DNA from: a virus
Direction: 5' to 3' (one strand)
IMG/VR virus record: IMGVR_UViG_3300047469_000054
Span: 1 to 64,000 of that record
Length of the DNA stretch: 64,000 bases
A program made the translations under genes and the position numbers. Shown piece after piece: positions 43,496-61,687 of the stretch (its first letter is position 1; each line of letters begins with the position of its first letter). Below the pieces are notes generated by a model. That model ran no database searches, had not been told where the DNA came from, and saw only the letters and a program-made list of their open reading frames with translations.

Positions 43496-43897
43496 ATGGC
43501 GGGCAGACCGCGCAAGCCACTTGCCAAGGCTAAAATTGAGGGCCGAGATAAAATTCACGCCGGGCGCTATTCAGGCAGAAATGAGCCGAAAGGAACAGAA
43601 GGGGCGGGAGATCCACCCGACTATCTACAGGATGTTGATGGCAACCTAACCCGTACCGCATGGTACCTCTTTACAATTGAGATCCCATGGCTAAACTCAT
43701 CCCATAGGTCGCTATTGGAAATGGCCTCATTGATACGCGGAGAAATCATTGCTGGCGGCATGCCTGGAATTCAACGGCTTAATGCGCTACGTATGATGCT
43801 AGCCCAAATGGGGGCAACTCCAGCGGATGCAACTAAGGTAGGTGTAGGTGGAAAAGATGACGAAGACGAAGACGATGAATTCTTTAACGGTGGCTGA
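43496..43897 (+). CDS. terS: Terminase small subunit (P27 family)
   Basis: 133 residues. AGRPRKPLAKAKIEGRDKIH, YSGRNEPKGTEGAGDPP, then AWYLFTIEIPWLNSSHRSLL (about 55-74) match the P27 family that recognises the packaging site. Ends in a very acidic tail (KDDEDEDDEFF). Its 3' end overlaps the large-subunit gene by 41 bases. Confidence 0.85.
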   Translation: MAGRPRKPLAKAKIEGRDKIHAGRYSGRNEPKGTEGAGDPPDYLQDVDGNLTRTAWYLFTIEIPWLNSSHRSLLEMASLIRGEIIAGGMPGIQRLNALRMMLAQMGATPADATKVGVGGKDDEDEDDEFFNGG

Positions 43898-46031
43898 AAA
43901 GGCCACCGCTGCCGCCCAGCGCCGCGCGCAACAAAAGGAGAAGGCTATTGCCGGAAGACAAAAAGAAGATACCGTATTGGGGAGACAGAAGCATGCGAAG
44001 CCGTTGGTTGCTGCTCAAGAACTTTCGCAAGGCAGAAAGGGAGTGGTGCGGCAAGCTGAAAACGAACAGGTTCGGCAGCCTAACGCACTGGACCGTGCTT
44101 CTGCCTATGCCCGTGCGGTATTGGATGGCGATATCATTGCCGGTCCACATGTGCGAAATACGTGCCGTAGACATTTTTCTGACCTTGACGTGGGCCGAGA
44201 TCGCGGTATCTTCTTTGATTTAGCTAAGGCGCAACGCATTGTAGATTTCTTTGAGAAAAAGCTTAAGCTGTCTGAGGGGCAGTTTGAGGGCTTGCCGTTC
44301 AAGCTTGCGCCTGTTCAGGTGTTTAAGCTGGCGTCAATATTCGGATGGTATCAAGCCCCTCTTGTGGGCGGTAAATATGATTTCGATGCTCCCAAAGGCG
44401 TCGTTAAGGGTGTAAATATTGCCGCTGGAAGGTATGCGCGTAGACGCTTTCGACGCGCGTATATCGAAGAGGGCAAAGGGAACGGCAAAAGCCCCTTTGC
44501 CGGGGGCATCGGCCTATATGGCTTATGCGCAGATGGCGAAGGCGGAGCGCAGATTTACGCCGCCGCCGCTAAGCAAGCGCAGGCGAACATTCTGTTTCAG
44601 GATGCCGTAAAGATGCGCGCTGCAAGTAAGGCGCTAAAAAAGCGCATTAATGGGATATCTGGTGGTCCAGGCAAGGAATACAATATGGCGCATTTGGCGT
44701 CAGGATCTTTCTTTCGTCCAATCTCAAAGGAGGCGGGCAAGACAGGCTCCGGCCCGCGCCCGCTATTCGCCTTGTGCGATGAAGTGCATGAGCATCCAGA
44801 TAGAAAGATTATGGAGATGCTGGAACGTGGCTTTAAGTTCCGACTGTCTCCGCTACTGCTTATGATCACTAATAGCGGTAGCGATCGCAATTCCATTTGT
44901 TGGGAAGAGCACGAATGGGCATGTAAGGTGGCCGCTGGCACTAGGACGCCTGACGATGATTTTACCTATGTTGGTGAGCCAATTGGCGATGATACGTTCT
45001 CGTATGTTTGCGCTATGGATAAGGATGACAACCCACTAACTGATCCGTCGTGCTGGTACAAGGCTAACCCAATGCTGGATATTATCCTTTCTCAAGAATA
45101 CCTAGCTGGCGTCGTGAAAACCGCCAAGGATATTCCAGGTCAGAGAAACGGTATTTTGCGGCTGCATTTTTGCACTTGGACAGATTCCGATAAGGGATGG
45201 ATGAGTCGAGAGATAATCGATAGGGCCATGGTTGACTTTGATCCTTACGAAATTCATAAGGAGGGAATTATTGCCGCTGGCGTTGACTTGTCCAAGACTC
45301 GAGATTTGACCGCCGCAGCTTTCGTCGTAGAGACTGGAAAGGTTACTGTTGATAGAACGAATTCGGATGGCTCCATTGAGGAAATGGAACTACCTACGTT
45401 TGATGCGTGGGTAGAGGCGTGGACTCCAAAGGACACTATTCTAGCACGCTCTGAAGCAGACAAGCAACCATATGTATTATGGTCGGAAACCATGTATCCC
45501 GGAACTGATCAGCCATATTTAAGGTCGACTCCTGGGGAGCGCATTAGATATGATCATGTCGCATCATTCTTTGTGAAGGTTAATCAAGAGATGCGCCTTA
45601 AGGGCATTGCATATGATAGATATGCATATGATAAGTTTAAGGAGGAGTGCGAAAATCAAGGGCTTGATGTTAAGCATATAGCCCATCCGCAAGGCGGCAA
45701 GATCCGCGCTAGGGTAGACCCTAAAGATGTTGAATTGGCTGAGAAGGCCGGAAAACCAAAGCCTCTTGGCTTATGGATGCCTGGGTCTTTGAAGTTATTC
45801 GAAGACGCTATTATTGATGGGCGCGTGCGCTTGCGTATGTCGCCCGTGTTGATGACTGCGCTTATGGGCGCGGCTCTGGCTAAGCCAGATGACCAGGGAA
45901 ATACATGGTTTGTTAAGGGTGACACAACAGTTAGAATCGACCCGGCTGTCGCTCTAGTTATGGCGTTTGGATTAATTCACGATATGCCGATTGACGAAAC
46001 TGAAGGTAAATTCCAAATGATGTTTCTGTAG
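43857..46031 (+). CDS. terL: Terminase large subunit
   Basis: 724 residues; AGGTGG five to six bases before ATG 43857 beats the GTG at 43848. It is longer than usual by a basic N-terminal segment of about 70 residues (AAAQRRAQQKEKAIAGRQK). Packaging ATPase motifs: Walker A EEGKGNGKSPF near 203-213 and Walker B LFALCDEVHEHP near 303. C-terminal nuclease part has GVDLSKTRDLTA (metal Asp near 477) and DRYAYDKF. Packages DNA into proheads. Confidence 0.92.
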   Translation: MTKTKTMNSLTVAEKATAAAQRRAQQKEKAIAGRQKEDTVLGRQKHAKPLVAAQELSQGRKGVVRQAENEQVRQPNALDRASAYARAVLDGDIIAGPHVRNTCRRHFSDLDVGRDRGIFFDLAKAQRIVDFFEKKLKLSEGQFEGLPFKLAPVQVFKLASIFGWYQAPLVGGKYDFDAPKGVVKGVNIAAGRYARRRFRRAYIEEGKGNGKSPFAGGIGLYGLCADGEGGAQIYAAAAKQAQANILFQDAVKMRAASKALKKRINGISGGPGKEYNMAHLASGSFFRPISKEAGKTGSGPRPLFALCDEVHEHPDRKIMEMLERGFKFRLSPLLLMITNSGSDRNSICWEEHEWACKVAAGTRTPDDDFTYVGEPIGDDTFSYVCAMDKDDNPLTDPSCWYKANPMLDIILSQEYLAGVVKTAKDIPGQRNGILRLHFCTWTDSDKGWMSREIIDRAMVDFDPYEIHKEGIIAAGVDLSKTRDLTAAAFVVETGKVTVDRTNSDGSIEEMELPTFDAWVEAWTPKDTILARSEADKQPYVLWSETMYPGTDQPYLRSTPGERIRYDHVASFFVKVNQEMRLKGIAYDRYAYDKFKEECENQGLDVKHIAHPQGGKIRARVDPKDVELAEKAGKPKPLGLWMPGSLKLFEDAIIDGRVRLRMSPVLMTALMGAALAKPDDQGNTWFVKGDTTVRIDPAVALVMAFGLIHDMPIDETEGKFQMMFL

Positions 46032-46126: not shown

Positions 46127-48097
46127 TTGAAAACGCATCGTGCTTATTCGCTGCTTTCCGTAAATAACGTTGTAAAGGCCGTAAAGGCCGGTAGCGATAC
46201 CGAACAGCGCATTATTTCCGGCATTGCAACGACTCCGACGCCTGACCGCGTTGGGGATATTATCGATCCGGCTGGCGTTTCTTTCAATAATCCTCTCCCG
46301 CTTCTTTGGCAGCATATGCATTCCATGCCAGTTGGTACCGTTGTTTTCGGCAAGGCTACCGATAAGGGAATTCCTTTTACTGCTACTCTTCCTGTTGTTG
46401 AGGAAGAGGGAAATTTGAAGCAGCGGGTTGATGAAGCTTGGCAGAGCGTCAAATTAGGTCTTGTACGGGCTGTATCAATTGGGTTTCGACCCATTGAATT
46501 TAGCTTTCTCGATAGCGGAGGCGTCCGTTTTACGGAGACTGAAGTTTTCGAATTGTCTCTGGTAACTGTTCCTGCAAATGCAGAGGCTACCATTGACGTT
46601 GTAAAAAGCATTGACGCAAAGGTAATTGTTGCCGCTAGCGGAGCAAAGAGCGTTAAGGCAAAAGAGGTTACGAAGTCTGGACGCGTTGTCTTGACGAAAA
46701 GCAAGGAGAATAAATTGGACTACGCCAAACAGATCGCAGAATTCCTGGAAACCAAGGCTGCAAAGATTGAGGCTGCAAACGCCCTTCTTGAAAAGTCTGC
46801 TTCCGCAACTCTAACCGATGAAGATTCGGCAGAGTACGACAATCTCAATGTTGAGATTGACTCCATTGACGCACATGTGAAGCGTCTTGAACAGGCGCAG
46901 GCTCGTTCTAAGGCTTCCGCTGTTGCCGTCGATACTACTAAGACCGCTGCTGCTGCTGCTGCTGCCCGCGCTGGCGTCCATGCCGTCGCTAAGGCTCCCA
47001 AGCTGGAAAAGGGTATCGAGTTCGCACAGTTCGCCATCTGCCTTGGTGCGGCTAAGGGTAGCCTACTCCAGGCTCGCGAAATCGCGCAGACTCGTTTCGT
47101 AGGCAATGCTGACCTGAATGTGGCGATTAAGGCTGCCGTTGCTGCCGGTACTACCACGGACGCCACTTGGGCCGCCCCTCTCGTTGACACCTATCAGCGC
47201 TTTGCTGGTGATTTCATCGAGTTCCTTCGTCCGCAGACCATTCTTGGTAAGTTCGGAACGGCTGGCATTCCTTCGCTGCGTCGCGTTCCGTTCAATATCG
47301 AAGTTGCTGGCCAGACTTCTGGCGGTAATGGTTACTGGGTCGGTGAAGGCAAGCCGAAGCCGCTGACCAAGTTCGATTACGCTAACGTTACGTTGCGTTG
47401 GGCCAAGGTCGCAAACATCGCCGTTCTGACTGAAGAGCTTCTTCGGTTCTCCAATCCTTCGGCAGAAGCACTGGTTCGCGACTCGCTGGCTGCCGCTCTG
47501 ATTGAGCGCCTGGACATCGACTTTATCAATCCTGCCAAGGCAGCCGTTGCTAACGTGTCTCCGGCTTCGATCACCAACGGCGTTGTTGGTATCCCGTCGT
47601 CTGGCAATGATGCTGCCGCCGTTCGCAATGATATTGCCGCCGTATTTGGCGCCTATATTGCCGCGAACATGACGCCTACTTCTGGCGTCTGGATTATGCA
47701 GGCTACCACTGCCCTGGCTCTGTCTCTTATGCAGAACCCGCTTGGCCAGTCTGAGTTCCCCGGCATCGGTATGAATGGCGGTACGCTGTTTGGCCTTCCT
47801 GTCATTGTTTCGCAGTATGTTGCCGCTGGCAACGTTATTCTGGCGAATGCTCAGGACATCTTTTTGGCTGACGATGGTCAGATCATGATTGATGCCTCGC
47901 GTGAAGCGTCGCTTCAGATGGATAATGCGCCTGCAACTCAGGACGCAACGACCGGCGCAGGCATCGAGCTTGTTTCGATGTTCCAGACCAATAGCGTTGC
48001 TATCCGCGCTGAACGCTGGATTAACTGGCAGAAGCGCCGCGCTGGTGCCGTCGTTCTTCTTACTGGCGTTGCCTGGGGCCAGCCTGAAACCCCGTAA
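46127..48097 (+). CDS. Prohead protease fused to HK97-type major capsid protein
   Basis: 656 residues. A TAG stands directly before the TTG start, so this rare start (AAAAGGA upstream) is the only one. Residues 20-165 are the U35/S78 protease: LLWQHMHSMPVG (His near 62) and RAVSIGF (Ser near 117), then FELSLVTVPANAEA. Residues 205-275 are a delta-like scaffold coiled coil. From about 300 on is the HK97-fold capsid (VDTYQRFAGDFIEFLRPQTI, LRRVPFNIEV, ALIERLDIDFINP). One polyprotein thus yields protease, scaffold and shell. Confidence 0.92.
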   Translation: MKTHRAYSLLSVNNVVKAVKAGSDTEQRIISGIATTPTPDRVGDIIDPAGVSFNNPLPLLWQHMHSMPVGTVVFGKATDKGIPFTATLPVVEEEGNLKQRVDEAWQSVKLGLVRAVSIGFRPIEFSFLDSGGVRFTETEVFELSLVTVPANAEATIDVVKSIDAKVIVAASGAKSVKAKEVTKSGRVVLTKSKENKLDYAKQIAEFLETKAAKIEAANALLEKSASATLTDEDSAEYDNLNVEIDSIDAHVKRLEQAQARSKASAVAVDTTKTAAAAAAARAGVHAVAKAPKLEKGIEFAQFAICLGAAKGSLLQAREIAQTRFVGNADLNVAIKAAVAAGTTTDATWAAPLVDTYQRFAGDFIEFLRPQTILGKFGTAGIPSLRRVPFNIEVAGQTSGGNGYWVGEGKPKPLTKFDYANVTLRWAKVANIAVLTEELLRFSNPSAEALVRDSLAAALIERLDIDFINPAKAAVANVSPASITNGVVGIPSSGNDAAAVRNDIAAVFGAYIAANMTPTSGVWIMQATTALALSLMQNPLGQSEFPGIGMNGGTLFGLPVIVSQYVAAGNVILANAQDIFLADDGQIMIDASREASLQMDNAPATQDATTGAGIELVSMFQTNSVAIRAERWINWQKRRAGAVVLLTGVAWGQPETP

Positions 48098-48127: not shown

Positions 48128-48162
48128 GGGCCGCTCTGCTCTGGCAAGGGCGGCCCTTTTTT
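48128..48162 (+). terminator. Rho-independent terminator after the capsid gene
   Basis: Stem GGGCCGC (48128-48134) with GCGGCCC (48150-48156), then six T. Would lower expression of downstream genes relative to capsid. Confidence 0.9.
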
Positions 48163-48179
48163 CATAAAGGAGATAGACT

Positions 48180-48524
48180 ATGCATAAGATTATTGTAACG
48201 GTAAAGGTGGCTCATACTGGAATGGGTATGTGGCGGGCCGTTGGCTCTACGTATGCCGTTGAGCGTTCGTATGCCAAGATCCTCCGGGCCATCGGTAAGG
48301 TTGACTACAATGACGCTGTGGCGCCTTCTGCGTCTGATGCTGTCATCTATCCATCTAGCGGAGAGTTGGCGTCCGTTGACGCTCTCAGGGATGAATATGA
48401 ACGCATTAGCGGCAAAGAAGCAGACAAGCGCTGGAAAGCTCCGCGCCTTGCTGCCGCCATTGCTGAGATTGGCGCAAATACGCCTGAGCTTGATGTGGGC
48501 GAAAAGCAAGGCGAAGAAAATTGA
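48180..48524 (+). CDS. Small protein with SAP/HeH-like motif
   Basis: 114 residues, AAAGGAG site. N-terminal beta domain (IIVTVKVAHTGMGMWRAV), then DALRDEYERISGKEADKRW and RLAAAI, a HeH/SAP-like helix-extended-loop pattern seen in phage structural-block proteins. Between capsid terminator and SGNH gene. Possibly a head accessory. Confidence 0.72.
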   Translation: MHKIIVTVKVAHTGMGMWRAVGSTYAVERSYAKILRAIGKVDYNDAVAPSASDAVIYPSSGELASVDALRDEYERISGKEADKRWKAPRLAAAIAEIGANTPELDVGEKQGEEN

Positions 48525-49732
48525 TCGGATTTGCTGAATTCATCAAGGAAATTTCTGCTGTTGGAGATGGCAGCGGGGATGCGGTGAATCCAATTATTCC
48601 TAGCGTTGGAATTCTTGCCGCCAATAGAACGCAATACAAGACGAACACAGCCAGCATTACCGCTCCGTTTACATCTCGGCGCATGCATTACGCGCACCCT
48701 GACGGTGACATTTCAGATATCCAAACGGTAGATCTTAATAGTTTCCTGGCTGGAATTTCGACGGCATCAAATGGGCCGGTACACAACATAAAGAGATTCA
48801 TTGAGTATCCGCAGGGAGTCTTTACTCCGGTTTTATGGGGTGGACTCGATGTGGTTTCTCTTTCTGCCGGTGGAAGAATTAAGTCTGACATTGTCGCCGG
48901 ACTAACTATTCCGGCTGGAGAAAAGTTTTGGGAACGTACGGTCATATTGACAAGCGGAAACATCCCCGTTTGCGTTATGCCCGCTGCGTCTAGCGCTATT
49001 GGCGTTGATGATGGCAACATCTCCGGTGATTTCGGTAATTCAGGTGCGATTGGCCCGACTACCGGCCTAAATACAATCGGATGTCAGGCTATTGTTGGCA
49101 CGGTAAATGCTACCGATGCTAGGAGCTTCGTCCTTCTTGGTGACAGCTTGACGTTTGGCGCGCTGGATATTACCGGATCTGGGCCAAAGGGAGCATCTGG
49201 TTTTGTCGCCCGCATGCTGGATGATCATGGCTACCCGTATATGAAATGGTGCATTGGCGGTCAATATCTCCAGAACCAAGTAACCATGGCATCTAGAATC
49301 AATGCGGACATTGGTCAATTCAATTTCTCCGATTTCATCATTGCGTCAGGTCTCAATGATCTTAGTCTCGGTAGCCGGACAAAGGCACAGGTATTGGCCG
49401 ATATCCAGACGATGGCAACTCAAACTAATGTTGCTGGAAAGCGCGTGTGGAAGACGACTATTACGCCAAGGTCTTCCTCTACGGATAGTTGGGCTACGGT
49501 GGAGAATCAATTGCCTCGCACGGATGGAAACATGGCGGATCTGATTCCTCTTAATGCCGATATCCGCGCCGGACTTCCTAATGTCTATGGGTTCATTGAT
49601 GCCGCTGATGCCGCAATGAGCGCTAGAGATAGCGGAATTCATAAAGCCCCACCAGCGGGAACTACAGATGGAACGCACTTCAATTCAGTTCGAGCCGAAT
49701 TGATTTCGTCTCTTATCGGCGTGGAAATTTAA
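48521..49732 (+). CDS. SGNH/GDSL hydrolase in the head gene block
   Basis: About 403 residues from a TTG overlapping the previous stop. Residues 1-200 are a beta-rich domain of unknown type (virion-binding candidate). Residues 205-403 are an SGNH hydrolase: LLGDSLTFGAL (Ser near 209), CIGGQYLQNQ (Gly), ASGLNDLSL (Asn near 279), and DGTHFNS (Asp/His near 383-386). SGNH enzymes remove acetyl or acyl groups from polysaccharides. Position suggests a capsid-bound decoration enzyme. No signal peptide. Confidence 0.8.
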   Translation: MIGFAEFIKEISAVGDGSGDAVNPIIPSVGILAANRTQYKTNTASITAPFTSRRMHYAHPDGDISDIQTVDLNSFLAGISTASNGPVHNIKRFIEYPQGVFTPVLWGGLDVVSLSAGGRIKSDIVAGLTIPAGEKFWERTVILTSGNIPVCVMPAASSAIGVDDGNISGDFGNSGAIGPTTGLNTIGCQAIVGTVNATDARSFVLLGDSLTFGALDITGSGPKGASGFVARMLDDHGYPYMKWCIGGQYLQNQVTMASRINADIGQFNFSDFIIASGLNDLSLGSRTKAQVLADIQTMATQTNVAGKRVWKTTITPRSSSTDSWATVENQLPRTDGNMADLIPLNADIRAGLPNVYGFIDAADAAMSARDSGIHKAPPAGTTDGTHFNSVRAELISSLIGVEI

Positions 49733-49830: not shown

Positions 49831-51819
49831 ATGGCTAAACCAGTAACGACAAGATTCGGAAATTTCGTTGTAAAGCTTGGAAACGACGCTGTGCCGATTG
49901 TGTATTCGGCGCCATGCGGCTTTACCTCTAAATCATTGCAGCTTACAAAAGACTTGACAGAGGTTAATATTCCAGACTGCGACAATCCCGATTCTGTGGC
50001 GTGGATCGGGAGAGACGCGGCTAGTTTGTCTGCGCAAGTAAGCGGAGACGGAATTCTGGCCTCAGAATCCGTCGATATCTGGCTTGACGCTTGGGAAAAC
50101 TCGAATTCAGTTCCAATTGAGATTTCCGTGGCCTTTCCATCAAAAACCATTGTGTGGACCGGATATGCGCAAGTTTCGGAGCTAACGATATCGGCAGAGC
50201 AGGGCGGTCGCGTGACAATTAGCGTTACTCTGATGAGTGACGGTGAATTGACCCGTGTAAGCAATGAGACTCTTGTAACCGTATTGGCGCATAAGGTGTA
50301 TGGTCCTGGTTACAATAGCGGCGCAGCTCCACTTACCGGGGACGGCTCAGCTAAGGGCTACAATGTCATTCTTACGAATGAAACTGGAGCGCCGATTACG
50401 ACGGCGTCTATTGCCCTCCAGGGCTGGACATTGACATTAGCAGGAACGACTGACACGGGGAATAGCTTTAGCGTAATCTCAAATGTGGAGTATCCAGTCG
50501 GAACTATAAGCGCTGTCTTCCCCACCACGGTTGTTCCTAGTGGGCAGAATGTTGCTACGGCTCCGATCCCGCTAACCACGCCGATTCCGATTGGCGGCGC
50601 CTTTAGGGTAACTCTTGTCAGCACTCCAGCAAATGGACAAAAATACATTGCTAATATTGGCTTTGCTGGCTTGCGCTCGCATGTGAATATTAGCAAAGCC
50701 GCCAGCGTTCGCCTTATGGGTGTTGGTGACAGTATTATGACCAATAACGGTAGCGCTGTATATAATGCGGCAACTGGAAAGTGCCCCGCATATATAAATA
50801 GTATAATCGGAGCTACCGCAAAATCATACGGAGATAATTCTGCTCAATATTTCGCTAGACAGGCTGATCTAGCCTCATTGCTTGGTATAACTCATATTAT
50901 ATCAAATTTTGGAACAAATGATTTTGGATCATCCGACACTGTGGCGAATCTAAAGACTTATCTAGGAAATATGCGTGACGCCGCTAGGGGCAAGGGAGTC
51001 GCTTTTGTTCAGGCGACAATCCTTCCCAGGACAAATCTCAATGTTTCCGATAACAGGATAACGGCCACGTCCGTTACCGGTTCAGGGACAACCATTAACG
51101 CAGTAGTTCCGGATGCAAGCAAGTTCACCGTTGGTCATCCATACTTCTTTGCGGGCGCTACTCCAGCCGCGTATAACGACATAAAGATATGTACCGCCAT
51201 CAACACTACTACGAACACTGTATCATTCAAGTTCGCAGGATCGGGCACGAGTCCGGCAACCGGAACAATAACAATTGCGCCGACATATGTGACGCAGAGC
51301 GTTGGTTTCATGACGCCATTTAATTCATATTATACGGCTGGTATCGCATCTCCTCGCGGTCAAATAAATGCTTGGATACGAAGTGGGGTATTCGATGGAT
51401 ATATTGATTGGGCCGATGCTGTCGAGCCGACGCGAGATAGCGGTCGCTGGAAGGTATCTGGTGAAGACGCGCTATTGCCAGCAACGCAAACCGTAACTGT
51501 GTCCGCCGTAGTTAGTACTACTGTGTTCACGTCAGATTACAATCGTGGCGTCGGCACAATGGCGTCAGGCCTTGTGCAGCCAATCACCGGCGCCAACGCT
51601 GGTCAGGTGGCTGGAGCAACGGGAAACACATCAACCAATATCACCTTGCTTGCTGCGTTCTCTGCCGCTCAGGCTATAGGAGATACATATTATTGCGTCC
51701 CTAAGCCATTCTATATGTCGGCAGATGGTGCGCATCCCGCCGCTAGTGTGGGCGGCAAGGGAGGGCAAATTCACATAGACAATGCAACCTTGTCCTGGAT
51801 TAACGCGGCGCTAGCTTGA
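49831..51819 (+). CDS. Tail-tube-like domain fused to SGNH hydrolase
   Basis: 662 residues. Residues 1-145 are a near-copy of the tail-tube protein at 56732 (both begin MAKPVT-RFGNF-VKLGNDA; about four of five positions agree by eye). Residues 150-290 are a beta-rich linker domain. From about 295: GVGDSIMTNNGS (Ser near 301), ISNFGTNDFG (Asn near 365), an inserted beta domain (about 410-490) and SADGAHPA (Asp/His near 631-634), the SGNH residues. It can be expected to co-assemble into the tail tube and display an esterase. Lies between capsid and portal, not in the tail block. Confidence 0.85.
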   Translation: MAKPVTTRFGNFVVKLGNDAVPIVYSAPCGFTSKSLQLTKDLTEVNIPDCDNPDSVAWIGRDAASLSAQVSGDGILASESVDIWLDAWENSNSVPIEISVAFPSKTIVWTGYAQVSELTISAEQGGRVTISVTLMSDGELTRVSNETLVTVLAHKVYGPGYNSGAAPLTGDGSAKGYNVILTNETGAPITTASIALQGWTLTLAGTTDTGNSFSVISNVEYPVGTISAVFPTTVVPSGQNVATAPIPLTTPIPIGGAFRVTLVSTPANGQKYIANIGFAGLRSHVNISKAASVRLMGVGDSIMTNNGSAVYNAATGKCPAYINSIIGATAKSYGDNSAQYFARQADLASLLGITHIISNFGTNDFGSSDTVANLKTYLGNMRDAARGKGVAFVQATILPRTNLNVSDNRITATSVTGSGTTINAVVPDASKFTVGHPYFFAGATPAAYNDIKICTAINTTTNTVSFKFAGSGTSPATGTITIAPTYVTQSVGFMTPFNSYYTAGIASPRGQINAWIRSGVFDGYIDWADAVEPTRDSGRWKVSGEDALLPATQTVTVSAVVSTTVFTSDYNRGVGTMASGLVQPITGANAGQVAGATGNTSTNITLLAAFSAAQAIGDTYYCVPKPFYMSADGAHPAASVGGKGGQIHIDNATLSWINAALA

Positions 51820-51980: not shown

Positions 51981-53360
51981 ATGAAGAAAACAACTGGCCT
52001 CATTGGTCGTTTTAAAAAGGCGTGGGGAACACTACTTTCGCCAAGCTCTACGGGCGGATGGTGGCCGGTGGTCAAGGAAGCATTCGGCGGCGCTTGGCAA
52101 AACAATATTGAAATTAGGAATGATCAAATCACGGCTTATCACGCTGTGTTTGCTTGCGTCACATTGATCGCATCAGATATTTCCAAGCTTGGAATTGATC
52201 TTATTCAGAAGTCTGGCGGCGCTTGGGTGCCAACAACGAATAACGCCTACTCTCCAGTTCTTAGAAAACCCAATAAGAACCAATCTAGAATTCAATTTAT
52301 TGAAAATTGGATGCTTTCAAAGCTGTTGACTGGAAACACTTATGTCCTGAAGATTAGGGACGGGCGGGGAGTAGTGACCGGACTCAAGATTCTTGACCCC
52401 ATCAATACGAAGCCATTGATTTCTCCAGATGGAAGTGTTTTCTACTCAACGTCGGAAGATAATTTCAATGGTCTGACGAGTGGTGATGTTGGCGAGGCTT
52501 TCCCCGCCAGCGAGATCATTCATGATAGATTCAATTGCATGTTTCATCCTCTTATCGGCGTGTCTCCTCTTTATGCATGTGGACTTGCCGCAATGCAGGG
52601 ATATTACATTCAAACAAGCCAAACTAAATTGTTTGAAAATGGCGTACAGGCTCCGGGCATCTTGACCGCTCCTGGCGCCATTGGCGACGCGACGGCGGCT
52701 AGGCTAAAGGCGCATTGGGAAGAGAACTATACCGGTGAAAAAAACTATGGTAAGGTTGCCGTATTGGGCGATGGGCTTAAGTTCGAAAAAATGTCCATGA
52801 CGGCGGCAGATTCGCAGCTTATCGAGCAATTGCGCTGGACGGCTGAAGTTATTTGTTCTGTTTTTCACGTTCCTCCATACATGATCGGCGTTGGCGAAGC
52901 GCCGCCATATACCAATATTCAATCTGTTAATATGCAATACTATACTCAGGCATTGCAGAATCCAATTGAATCCATTGAGCTTTGCCTTGATGAGGGGCTT
53001 AACCTGCCTTCAGATATTGGCGTGCAGATGGACATTGATGGCCTATTGCGCATGGATGAGCAGACGCGCTCAACTACGTTGACCAATTATTCCAAGGCTG
53101 GCGTTTTGAAATTGAATGAAGTTCGTAATAAGATTGGATATCAGAACATGGTAGGTGGTAATTCTGCCTTCCTTCAGCAACAGAACTTTAGCGTTACGGC
53201 CTTGGCTAAGCGCGATGCCGGTGCCGATCCATTCGCTACAGCGCCAGCACAGCCAGTGCCATCTACGGATACAAACGACAATGGCGACAATCAAGATGCA
53301 GCAAAGCTTTTTGAGCATATGTCAAAGTCTATCAAGGAAGGAATTCGCTTTGAAATTTGA
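51981..53360 (+). CDS. Portal protein (HK97 family)
   Basis: 459 residues, AAAGGAGA site. ITAYHAVFACVTLIASDISK (about 50-69), LLTGNTYVLKIRDGRG, GVSPLYACGLAAMQGYY, FHVPPYMIGVGE and LTNYSKAGVLKLNEVR are the standard portal landmarks. Forms the dodecameric DNA gate at one capsid vertex. It normally precedes the protease/capsid genes; here it follows them and two hydrolase genes. Confidence 0.92.
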   Translation: MKKTTGLIGRFKKAWGTLLSPSSTGGWWPVVKEAFGGAWQNNIEIRNDQITAYHAVFACVTLIASDISKLGIDLIQKSGGAWVPTTNNAYSPVLRKPNKNQSRIQFIENWMLSKLLTGNTYVLKIRDGRGVVTGLKILDPINTKPLISPDGSVFYSTSEDNFNGLTSGDVGEAFPASEIIHDRFNCMFHPLIGVSPLYACGLAAMQGYYIQTSQTKLFENGVQAPGILTAPGAIGDATAARLKAHWEENYTGEKNYGKVAVLGDGLKFEKMSMTAADSQLIEQLRWTAEVICSVFHVPPYMIGVGEAPPYTNIQSVNMQYYTQALQNPIESIELCLDEGLNLPSDIGVQMDIDGLLRMDEQTRSTTLTNYSKAGVLKLNEVRNKIGYQNMVGGNSAFLQQQNFSVTALAKRDAGADPFATAPAQPVPSTDTNDNGDNQDAAKLFEHMSKSIKEGIRFEI

Positions 53361-54846
53361 TACATTCGAGGCCATCGAAAAGGCCATGGAAAATATTAAG
53401 TCTGCAATTACGAAGACGGTTGAGCCAATCGTAGTTGAAGTGCGTGCCGTTAAGGCGGCCATTGGCGATGCTGTTTCGCGTATCGGTGAAGTTGAGGTGC
53501 TGGCCTCCAGACTTGATAATCATCTTACAGAAGCCAATGAAACGGCCGCCGCTGCACTTGAGACATCTATGGAGGCCGTTAAGACGGTTGAGCAGATTCG
53601 TGGCGAATTCGGCACGTTTGCTGATGACGCCGTGAGGATCATTGATGAACGCGTGGCGACTATTGAGGTTAAGCATGGCGTTGATGGTAAGGACGGCACT
53701 AACGGCCTAAATGGCGATCATGCGCCCTTTGTCGAGAGCGTGTATAATGATGGCGGCCAACTGCACTTCGTCATGTCGGACGGCAAGTCATTCGCCATTA
53801 CTGCCCCGTCAGATGGTGAAGACGGCAAGGATGGCGTTGGTATTCATGATATTGACATTAATGAAGCTGGTGAGCTTTTCTATGTTCTTACGAACAATAA
53901 GGAAGTTGCATTCAACATCGGCAAAGTTCGCGGCGAAGATGGCGATAGCATCACATCTGCTCACGTTGATGTTGATGGCAAGCTTTCTTTCGGGACGGCA
54001 AGGGGTAAGACGATTGACGTTGAGGATATTCGCCTTAAGGCCGATGTCGTTAACGGCGTTGATGGTAAGGACGCTCCGAAGATTGAGAGCATTTCTATCG
54101 CTGATGATTCTCGTGAAATCGAGATTGTCCTGTCAGATGGTGTGAAGCACTTTATTCCAGCACCAAAGGACGGCAAGGATGGCGTTGACGGTAAAGATGC
54201 CCCGGCCATTGAAGTCGTGAAGAAGACCAGCGAGGGCCGCTTGGTCTTCGGCATGTCAGATGGAAAATCATTCGAGATTGATGCACCAAAGGACGGCAAG
54301 GATGGCGTTGACGGAACCAATGGCTTGGATGGCGTTAATTTAGTTGATGCCCTGATCGACTCTGAAAATCGCCTTGTTCTAACGACATCCAACGGAACCG
54401 TTAAGACTCTTGATGTCGTCGTCGGCTCCGATGGTAAGGACGGCGTTGATGGCGCCCCAGGTAAAAATGGAGCCGATGGCTTTGGCTTTGATGACATGGC
54501 TATGGAGTATGATGGTGAGCGCGGCCTTTCTATCGTGTATTCTCAGGGTGACCGCGTGAAGTCTATTGACTTTCATTTGCCTATTCCAATCTATAGGGGC
54601 CAATTTGATTCGGCTAAAAGCTATGAGCGCGGAGATATGGTCACACACTTTGGTGCCGTGTATCATTTCGATGGCGGTGATAATGGCATCCCTGGTTCAG
54701 CCAAATCTTGGCAATTGTCTATCCGCGCTGGTGTCGATGGCAAGGCGGGTGCGCCCGGTACACCTGGGAAGCCGGGAAAGAAGGGCGAGACCGGTCGCCC
54801 CGGTAGAGATCTTACGCAGATTGGCCCTGATGGGAGTAAATGGTAA
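53350..54846 (+). CDS. Collagen-like structural protein with carbohydrate-binding-type end
   Basis: About 498 residues from a TTG (AAGGA eight bases upstream) overlapping the portal stop. N-terminal 100 residues are a coiled coil (EAIEKAMENIKSAITKTVEP). Then short collagen-like GxY runs (VDGKDGTNGLNGDHA, DGKDGVDGKDA, DGTNGLDGV, GAPGTPGKPGKKGETGRPGR) alternate with beta modules. YRGQFDSAKSYERGDMVTHF (about 417-436) resembles a chitin-binding (CBM5/12) module. Likely a trimeric fibre on the head, neck or portal region. Confidence 0.8.
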   Translation: MKFDTFEAIEKAMENIKSAITKTVEPIVVEVRAVKAAIGDAVSRIGEVEVLASRLDNHLTEANETAAAALETSMEAVKTVEQIRGEFGTFADDAVRIIDERVATIEVKHGVDGKDGTNGLNGDHAPFVESVYNDGGQLHFVMSDGKSFAITAPSDGEDGKDGVGIHDIDINEAGELFYVLTNNKEVAFNIGKVRGEDGDSITSAHVDVDGKLSFGTARGKTIDVEDIRLKADVVNGVDGKDAPKIESISIADDSREIEIVLSDGVKHFIPAPKDGKDGVDGKDAPAIEVVKKTSEGRLVFGMSDGKSFEIDAPKDGKDGVDGTNGLDGVNLVDALIDSENRLVLTTSNGTVKTLDVVVGSDGKDGVDGAPGKNGADGFGFDDMAMEYDGERGLSIVYSQGDRVKSIDFHLPIPIYRGQFDSAKSYERGDMVTHFGAVYHFDGGDNGIPGSAKSWQLSIRAGVDGKAGAPGTPGKPGKKGETGRPGRDLTQIGPDGSKW

Positions 54847-56731: not shown

Positions 56732-57178
56732 ATGGCAAAGCCAGTAACAGCCCGTTTTGGCAATTTTACGGTTAAGCTTGGCAACGATGCCGACCCAATC
56801 GTTTATGTCGCGCCTTGCGGCTTCACTTCCAAATCGCTACAGCTTACCAAGGATCTAACGGAGGTTAACATCCCCGATTGCGACGACCCGGATGCAGTAT
56901 CGTGGGTAGGCCGTGATGCGGCGAGTCTTTCTGCTCAGGTTACTGGCGATGGCGTGCTAGCTTCCGAGTCTGTCGATACTTGGCTTGAGGCCTGGGAAAA
57001 CGTCGAGAGCGTTCCGATTCAGATTTCGATTGTCTTTCCGGCCAAGACTATTACTTGGACAGGCTTCGCTCAGGTGTCTGAGCTTACGATTGCCGCAGAA
57101 CAGGGTGGCCGCGTGACTATTTCCACGACTATCCAGTCAGACGGCGAGCTTGTTCGCGTTACGACTCCGACGCCATAA
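56732..57178 (+). CDS. Major tail tube protein
   Basis: 148 residues, AAAGGAGA site. Canonical position between tail terminator and chaperone. Beta-rich; GFTSKSLQLTKDLTEVNIP, ESVDTWLEAWENVESVP and AEQGGRVTISTTIQSDGEL fit phage tail-tube proteins. An extended near-copy fused to an SGNH hydrolase lies at 49831. Confidence 0.9.
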   Translation: MAKPVTARFGNFTVKLGNDADPIVYVAPCGFTSKSLQLTKDLTEVNIPDCDDPDAVSWVGRDAASLSAQVTGDGVLASESVDTWLEAWENVESVPIQISIVFPAKTITWTGFAQVSELTIAAEQGGRVTISTTIQSDGELVRVTTPTP

Positions 57179-60615: not shown

Positions 60616-61247
60616 TGCCAAGGAATATTTCAGCTGCAAACCTATTGGCGCTTCAGCAAGGACTCTTGGTATTTAGAGACTTTGTGTCGATTACAGCTAG
60701 AGTCATGGGGTCATCGGAAACCGTTCGCGATGACATGTGGAGCGACTACGGTAACGTATCTGCGCAAATCATCAATCCTAATACGGGGGCCACGGAAAGC
60801 AGAGACTTCTATGGTTCAGGAACAATCATTTCCATTGATGATATTCCGATGACATCAAACCTTCAGGCGCAAAACGTAAATATCAATATGGGGCAGATCA
60901 ATGCTCACGTTGAAAACCTATTGCGCGGATACGATCTTAGGCAGGCGCCGATAGAAATATATCGCGGCTTTTTCGATCCATCTAGCCGCCTTATGGTTGC
61001 TCCAGCTGAAGCTAGGTTCGTTGGATTTATCGATAGCGTTGAGATTGATACTCCAGCGGAGAATGAGTTCGGAAACGCCATTGCTACTTGCGTTAGCAAC
61101 ACGCAGGAAATTACACGCGCAAACTCTGAAACTAGGTCGCAGGCTTCGCAGGCCGTACGCGTTAGCAATGATGGCTTTTTCAACGATAGCGCCACAACTG
61201 GAAGTTGGAAAGTATGGTGGGGTTCCGTTAAGGGCAAGGTGTCCTAG
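60615..61247 (+). CDS. Tail hub/baseplate protein (DUF2163, GTA gp13-like)
   Basis: 210 residues; ATG overlaps previous stop and has GGGAG upstream. RNISAANLLALQQGLLVFRD and FVSITARVMG start, then beta-rich hub domain with APIEIYRGFFDP and GFIDSVEIDTPAEN. Fits the tail hub encoded after DUF2460. Confidence 0.78.
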   Translation: MPRNISAANLLALQQGLLVFRDFVSITARVMGSSETVRDDMWSDYGNVSAQIINPNTGATESRDFYGSGTIISIDDIPMTSNLQAQNVNINMGQINAHVENLLRGYDLRQAPIEIYRGFFDPSSRLMVAPAEARFVGFIDSVEIDTPAENEFGNAIATCVSNTQEITRANSETRSQASQAVRVSNDGFFNDSATTGSWKVWWGSVKGKVS

Positions 61248-61687
61248 TGGCAGTTCGTAAAGCCACCAGGGGCGATGTGTCCACGATCGTTCGCATGGCC
61301 GAAATGTTCCATGGGGAAACTAGATATCCAACTTCATTCAATGATGGCCGAGTAGAGGCTCTAGTGTCAAGAATGATCGGAACATCATCCGCAGTCATAT
61401 TCGTCGCTGGTGAGCCTGCCTGTGGTTTCCTGGCTGCATTTAAGGACGTATCTCCCATGACGGGCGAACACTTTGCTAATGAGATAGCCTTTTGGGTTGA
61501 TCCGTCGCATAGGCGCGGCAAATATGGTGCCGCGCTCATTGATGCTTATGTTGATTGGGCTAAATCTAATGGATGCGCAGTCGCTAGATTGACGACGCAA
61601 GAGAATATGCGTCCGGAGTTGGTTGAAAGAGTTTATGGCCGTTTTGGATTCGGAAAGCAAGAGACTGCATTTATAAGGAGGCTATAA
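61247..61687 (+). CDS. GNAT acetyltransferase in the tail block
   Basis: 146 residues from a GTG overlapping the previous stop. RKATRGDVSTIVRMAEMFH start, EIAFWVDPSHRRGKYGAALI (acetyl-CoA-binding motif A, about 84-103) and ERVYGRFGFGKQETAFI end are clear GNAT signatures. This slot usually holds an NlpC/P60 peptidase in GTA-like tails, which is missing here. Target unknown. Confidence 0.85.
   Translation: MAVRKATRGDVSTIVRMAEMFHGETRYPTSFNDGRVEALVSRMIGTSSAVIFVAGEPACGFLAAFKDVSPMTGEHFANEIAFWVDPSHRRGKYGAALIDAYVDWAKSNGCAVARLTTQENMRPELVERVYGRFGFGKQETAFIRRL

Follow-up and report, generated by a model that had tools for sequence, protein, structure and literature searches.

Phage enzymes that clip polysaccharides are usually pictured as tailspikes. 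Among those of the SGNH type, the tailspikes Aristophanes gp41 and PP99 gp55 deacetylate host polysaccharides, as established by nuclear magnetic resonance (PMC8471582, PMC6989608), and the receptor-binding SGNH proteins of Klebsiella prophages have confirmed esterase activity (PMC13123978). Together with G7C gp63.1 these are virion-borne enzymes, and the characterised ones O-deacetylate polysaccharide (PMC8471582, PMC6989608, PMC13123978). A two-domain plan is known from cellular xylan- or polymer-degrading enzymes, namely the acetyl-xylan esterases (AcXEs) PbeAcXE, CspAcXE and FjoAcXE and the polyvinyl-alcohol (PVA) esterase; in PbeAcXE, an N-terminal domain resembling a carbohydrate-binding module (CBM) packs on the SGNH domain and supplies the active site with residues that bind sugar (PMC9105624). 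Here we analysed SGNH1, a 403-residue protein encoded on the forward strand at positions 48521-49732 of the 66,915-base IMG/VR virus contig IMGVR_UViG_3300047469_000054, whose first 64,000 nucleotides constitute the window under study. Isolate-phage relatives of this virus infect Rhizobium and Sinorhizobium. Our data make it likely that SGNH1 is a virion-associated polysaccharide O-acetylesterase, a member of a mobile two-domain family that resides in phage structural blocks and is kin to the cellular AcXE/PVA esterases. It would thus be virion-borne like the enzymes above. Unlike the SGNH tailspikes and tail fibres, SGNH1 is encoded in the head block and has no N-terminal virion (tail) binding domain of the tailspike or receptor-binding type; only a 27-residue tail precedes its front domain.

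Judged by its match to the PHROG 8480 profile (residues 30-390, E 2.7e-38) and by full-length homologues in isolate phages and viral contigs (25-57% identity), SGNH1 is a real gene product. PHROG 8480, which includes Mesorhizobium phage Lo5R7ANS gp62 and Rhizobium phage SGNH proteins, is named lysophospholipase L1-like esterase, a label that carries neither location nor function and covers contexts from T7-like podoviruses to siphoviruses. An AlphaFold2 model built on an alignment of 18 relatives (overall predicted local distance difference test score, pLDDT, 83.5) comprises a flexible N-terminal tail (residues 1-27, with 1-20 disordered), a confidently predicted beta-sandwich front domain of the CBM-like kind (about 28-200; pLDDT mostly >90 over 30-200) and an SGNH alpha/beta/alpha hydrolase domain (201-403), the latter also supported by PDB matches. 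When folded alone, the front domain (residues 25-200, forward strand 48593-49120) reached a pLDDT of 89.6. The initial annotation, made from the DNA letters, had proposed a separate SGNH enzyme here on the basis of the motifs GDSLTFG, GLNDL and DGTH, preceded by a beta-rich domain of about 200 residues. Both points were borne out, the open reading frame being exact and the motifs present with conserved signature residues.

The SGNH signature of the protein is complete, with S209 in block I, G247 in block II, N279 in block III, and D383 and H386 in block V. Since the columns G207-D208-S209, G247, N279, D383-G384 and H386 are invariant among nine family members (alignment A1), the catalytic serine, the oxyanion-hole residues and the Asp-His pair appear to be in place. 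Most signature residues are also nearly invariant in an 18-row alignment (A4). Pfam scores for SGNH1 lie below the curated cut-offs (21.5 bits versus 23.6 for PF13472, and 20.9 versus 32.9 for PF00657) while covering the right residues, and several members of the family exceed these thresholds. On this sequence evidence, SGNH1 is probably active as an esterase.

Structural comparison of the whole model with the PDB (VIA-align) returned the PVA esterase (Z 28.6-29.0 over 338 residues) and PbeAcXE/CspAcXE (Z 27.2-28.4), after which the next match dropped to Z 13.9 and covered the SGNH domain only. The AcXE/PVA structures (7tog, 7toh, 7toj, 9kr0) share with SGNH1 the order and fold of both domains. 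A sequence-profile search against the PDB likewise found 9kr0 (E 6e-14) and 7tog (E 3e-9), with alignments covering the latter half of the front domain together with the SGNH domain. In contrast to SGNH1, these enzymes are cellular and not phage-borne. Because the catalytic-serine motif of the AcXEs is GNSI (PMC9105624) and that of SGNH1 is GDSL, we regard SGNH1 as related to the PbeAcXE group but not as a member of it. We also considered the invariant R36 and R139 of SGNH1 as the substrate-binding arginines of AcXEs and dropped the idea, as the correspondence was not borne out by sequence alignment: SGNH1 R139 does not align with Arg139 of PbeAcXE, which together with Arg25 and Asn26 of the CBM-like domain lines the active site.

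The front domain taken alone most resembled the CBM-like domains of AcXE/PVA esterases (Z 14.5-15.5; 11.6 for that of FjoAcXE), and it also matched 9jwb_Z, a protein of the cyanophage A4 capsid model (Z 11.4, 149 of 201 residues), and tail-tip proteins of mycobacteriophages (Z 10.1 and 8.8). A dedicated head-decoration fold or anchor, as the initial annotation had envisaged for this domain, was therefore rejected: the best matches are domains of cellular esterases, with the capsid protein only next at Z 11, which argues that the front domain is part of the enzyme architecture. Neither Pfam nor PHROG scans matched a recognised decoration domain (PF09956, phrog_49, phrog_122) in SGNH1. The same annotation had named a match of the front domain to a purely cellular enzyme family as refuting its proposal. 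Kinship with cellular esterases was found and speaks against the head-domain idea, yet it is no argument against a virion location, because phage tail tips and the capsid protein of A4 share the fold. By modelling, then, folds of this kind also serve on phage surfaces.

The adjacent gene provides a second member of the family. SGNH2 (forward strand, 49831-51819) consists of a tail-tube protein (residues 1-147) fused to a two-domain SGNH esterase (about 150-662). The initial annotation, which correctly placed SGNH1 between the capsid gene (46127-48097) and this tube fusion, with a small gene (48180-48524) intervening on the capsid side, had described the two SGNH proteins as unrelated-looking. 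They are marginally similar by BLASTP; by hhalign, however, they align across both front and SGNH domains with a probability of 99.6% (E 5e-24; 98.2% with a larger alignment). According to these profiles, the two are distantly related, and SGNH2 repeats the two-domain plan of SGNH1 behind a tail-tube protein. The tube part shares 81% protein and 68% DNA identity with the stand-alone tail-tube gene of the window (forward strand, 56732-57178), its source or sister. Their differences are mainly synonymous (74 synonymous versus 28 non-synonymous codons), so the tube part of SGNH2 appears to be an old duplicate under selection as a tube protein. The tail tube probably contains two types of subunit, one of them bearing an enzyme. 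In Rhizobium phage RHph_X2_26 the capsid, small, SGNH and portal genes follow one another in the order of the window without the tube fusion, and no SGNH gene is annotated behind the capsid gene in RHph_X2_25 or TM3_3_14B, relatives by their tube protein.

Relatives of SGNH1 lend good support to a virion location. Protein gp14 of Sinorhizobium phage phiM5 (ARV77515.1), which belongs to the same two-domain family, carries an annotation of detection in the particle proteome, and so does the product of the small gene preceding it. Its gene lies behind the capsid gene, with one tRNA and one small gene between. The setting differs from that of SGNH1 in that phiM5 is a podovirus and the small gene ahead of gp14 is a different one, unrelated to that of the window. 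A second line of evidence is a 496-residue protein of IMGVR_UViG_3300032004_000009 (L036, 5650-7140; L037, 6001-7491), in which residues 5-106 form a cement, or head-decoration, domain (PF09956, E 2e-15; phrog_122, E 6e-12) and the remainder belongs to the SGNH family. The gene directly follows gpD-like decoration and capsid genes, and only one such fusion was found. As their sequences read, this cement fusion and the tube fusion of SGNH2 are two independent fusions to structural proteins. In addition, the N-terminal tags GLSL..GGG and SPxxSP are common to SGNH1- and SGNH2-type proteins; these classes were defined after looking, and the sharing is suggestive only. The earlier proposal of several deacetylase-like activities on one virion thus remains plausible, given the phiM5 annotation, both fusions and the recurrence of double copies, although not with unrelated enzymes.

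The family is spread across diverse phages. Homologues in rhizobial phages are 31-55% identical to SGNH1; in the T7-like podoviruses RHph_X3_9 (55%) and Lo5R7ANS the gene lies after a terminase gene and between terminase genes, respectively. Near-full-length homologues occur also in the siphovirus RHph_X2_26 (48% identity) and in actinophages, and more distant ones in P106B-like phages. A pattern scan of IMG/VR added 23 further loci. Nearly all members with readable context, from siphoviruses and podoviruses, reside in head, connector, terminase or tail/lysis blocks, an exception being RHph_TM16, in which the genes around the SGNH2-type gene are unassigned. In RHph_N2 a single protein of 805 residues contains two SGNH modules, and P106B and the phiM5-like phages L027 and L044 have two genes each. 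The post-capsid slot of these phiM5-like phages holds an SGNH1-type gene in L027 (50% identical to SGNH1) and an SGNH2-type gene in L044; the second gene stands beside the tail fibre (L027, 5983-7350; L044, 3733-5100). A pattern search found no copy in bacterial genomes, which is weak evidence of absence. Neither a viral-contig scan with the single SGNH1 protein nor a genome-contig scan with alignment A3 gave matches, and megablast with the SGNH block found none among phages.

In a maximum-likelihood tree of 25 family members, SGNH1 grouped with proteins encoded in connector blocks (L014, L017) and beside a terminase gene (L015), and not with the syntenic RHph_X2_26 protein. The five post-capsid members require five changes on the tree, at least four of which are forced by well-supported branches; phiM5 gp14 sits on a long branch and its position is unsure. 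This placement indicates that the esterase moves between slots and phage types and that the post-capsid slot was entered repeatedly. Such repeated entry could reflect head display or merely a permissive insertion site.

We infer the following sequence of events for SGNH1. The gene would be read together with the head genes, and the protein would attach to the particle by its flexible N-terminal tail, where relatives may rely on a cement domain, a tail-tube domain or short tags at the N-terminus. The beta-domain would assist in holding acetylated exopolysaccharide or lipopolysaccharide (LPS) of the host, from which the Ser209-Asp383-His386 triad would cleave acyl groups, most likely O-acetyl, during approach, so that the virion could pass or bind the host envelope. 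Several points weigh against this proposal. The support for a virion location comes from relatives; among these, phiM5 gp14 shares only about 25% identity with SGNH1, and a GenBank note is the source for its detection. No anchor domain is recognisable in SGNH1, whose N-terminal tail (MIGFAEFIKEISAVGDGSGD) is not a clear fit to either tag class. Agreement with the esterase structures is moderate by template modelling score (0.63-0.65). The acetyl-ester substrate is assigned by analogy with kin, and AcXE-type enzymes are narrow in substrate. Some family members lie near lysis genes. Finally, activity cannot be assumed everywhere: the tail-fibre copy of L027 has GDAPTYG, EDL and NGRD in place of the catalytic motifs and is likely a binding-only relative, and a motif scan of the tail-fibre copy of L044 returned none.

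Where on the particle would such an enzyme reside? SGNH1 may decorate the capsid through its N-terminal tail, its beta-domain or both, so that the head itself deacetylates the surrounding polysaccharide; we give this a reasonable chance, though one short of even. The post-capsid slot is occupied in several unrelated phage types after at least four entries, a cement domain has been joined to an SGNH enzyme, and the front domain resembles a protein of the A4 capsid asymmetric unit. Gene order does not fix location, however, with close relatives found in terminase, connector and tail blocks, and the neighbouring SGNH2 sits on the tail tube. The A4 likeness is itself ambiguous. A search with A4L_25 ('plastocyanin-like', 202 residues) identified this protein as 9jwb_Z, and its gene lies between tail-fibre genes; it has no SGNH domain and only 9% identity to the SGNH1 front domain, which also matches tail-tip domains, and a shared fold is no proof of a shared role.

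SGNH1 might instead be an accessory tail or neck esterase, akin to tailspikes or receptor-binding proteins and merely encoded beside head genes, a possibility that we take seriously while leaning away from it. Family members end the tail modules of RHph_N2 and of L030-L033, actinophage copies are annotated as minor tail proteins, the tube fusion adjoins SGNH1, tail-tip folds match its front domain, and the SGNH receptor-binding proteins known so far belong to tails (PMC13123978, PMC8471582). The cement fusion and the repeated placement behind capsid genes are harder to reconcile with a tail or neck position.

Improbable in our view is a soluble late enzyme that aids lysis and release by de-acetylating envelope polysaccharide, or that alters the lysogen surface, a role like that suggested for an esterase with a signal peptide that Xanthomonas phage PBR31 encodes among its lysis genes (PMC10975493). 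Some relatives do adjoin lysozyme or holin-like genes, and a terminator-like hairpin separates the capsid gene from the SGNH block. But the number of terminator-like sites is not clearly above that in shuffled sequences (11 versus 8.0, standard deviation 2.6), no signal-peptide-like N-terminus is visible in the SGNH1 sequence, its gene overlaps the preceding head-module gene, and the family has a member annotated in phiM5 virions and direct fusions to cement and tube proteins. Least probable of all is that the SGNH fold persists in SGNH1 as a sugar-binding module without catalysis, as may apply to the tail-fibre copies of L027 and L044, since its signature is full and the nucleophile serine is retained in 16 of the 17 other members of the 18-row alignment.

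That phages carry an SGNH family, and that a distant homologue is annotated in virions, is already known, and SGNH1 is a further member. What looks new is the picture of a single family of two-domain esterases borne by interchangeable anchors, among them a capsid cement domain and a second copy of the tail-tube protein; we did not find it in the literature searched. It departs from the usual tailspike model in that different phages attach the enzyme in different ways, be it by short tails at the N-terminus, a tail-tube protein or a cement domain. The analysis also gives content to 'lysophospholipase L1-like esterase', an uninformative name in many phage genomes. If head or tube display is true, each particle could bear many enzyme copies, which would change the picture of passage through exopolysaccharide, and head display would be a natural example of enzymes displayed on phage heads. 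More speculatively, and we think rather doubtfully, two-domain esterases may have been installed behind the capsid genes of soil-bacterial phages on several independent occasions and be displayed over the head, here also along the tail tube via the duplicated tube protein, so that the whole virion surface and not only the tail tip would strip acyl groups from host exopolysaccharide or LPS.

The TTG at which the SGNH1 gene starts shares bases with the stop codon of the gene before it (ATTGA), and the purine-rich CAAGGCGAAG lies ahead of it. This TTG is likely the true start, because the frame stays open for only nine codons further upstream. Promoter-like sites matched the shuffle expectation, and a promoter of its own was therefore not retained for SGNH1. 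Ahead of SGNH1 lie the small and large terminase genes (43496-46031), followed on the forward strand by a fusion of prohead protease and major capsid protein (46127-48097; PF04586; phrog_617, E 3e-161) and the gene for a small head-module protein of 114 residues (48180-48524; MKVxV...DEYERISGKEADKRWK), the stop codon of which overlaps the start of SGNH1. A terminator-like hairpin with a T-run at 48136-48158, between the capsid and small genes, would leave the SGNH block less strongly expressed than the capsid gene. The small gene has a homologue in the same place in RHph_X2_26. It was considered as a dedicated SGNH partner and, for this window, rejected, as relatives of similar length occur in other phage contigs, those inspected without an SGNH gene noted alongside. 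Other small genes lie directly upstream of SGNH genes in L024 (5540-5887), L025 (3043-3324), L026 (2725-3072), L045 (5602-5913), L046 (2474-2734) and L052 (4801-5106). They encode 86-115 residues of beta-structure-like sequence, several overlap the SGNH start by one base, and their products are possible adaptor proteins.

Downstream of the two SGNH genes lie the portal gene (forward strand, 51981-53360), which in RHph_X2_26 directly follows the SGNH gene, and a gene for a collagen-like protein with repeated units (53155-54846), then connector genes, the stand-alone tube gene, the tape measure gene and tail-tip genes. The collagen-like gene begins at a GTG inside the portal gene, an overlap of 206 bases, and its true start is probably later. 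Within the tail-tip block, this phage, which also encodes two probable esterases, carries a GNAT-type acetyltransferase gene (phrog_1249; 61247-61687).
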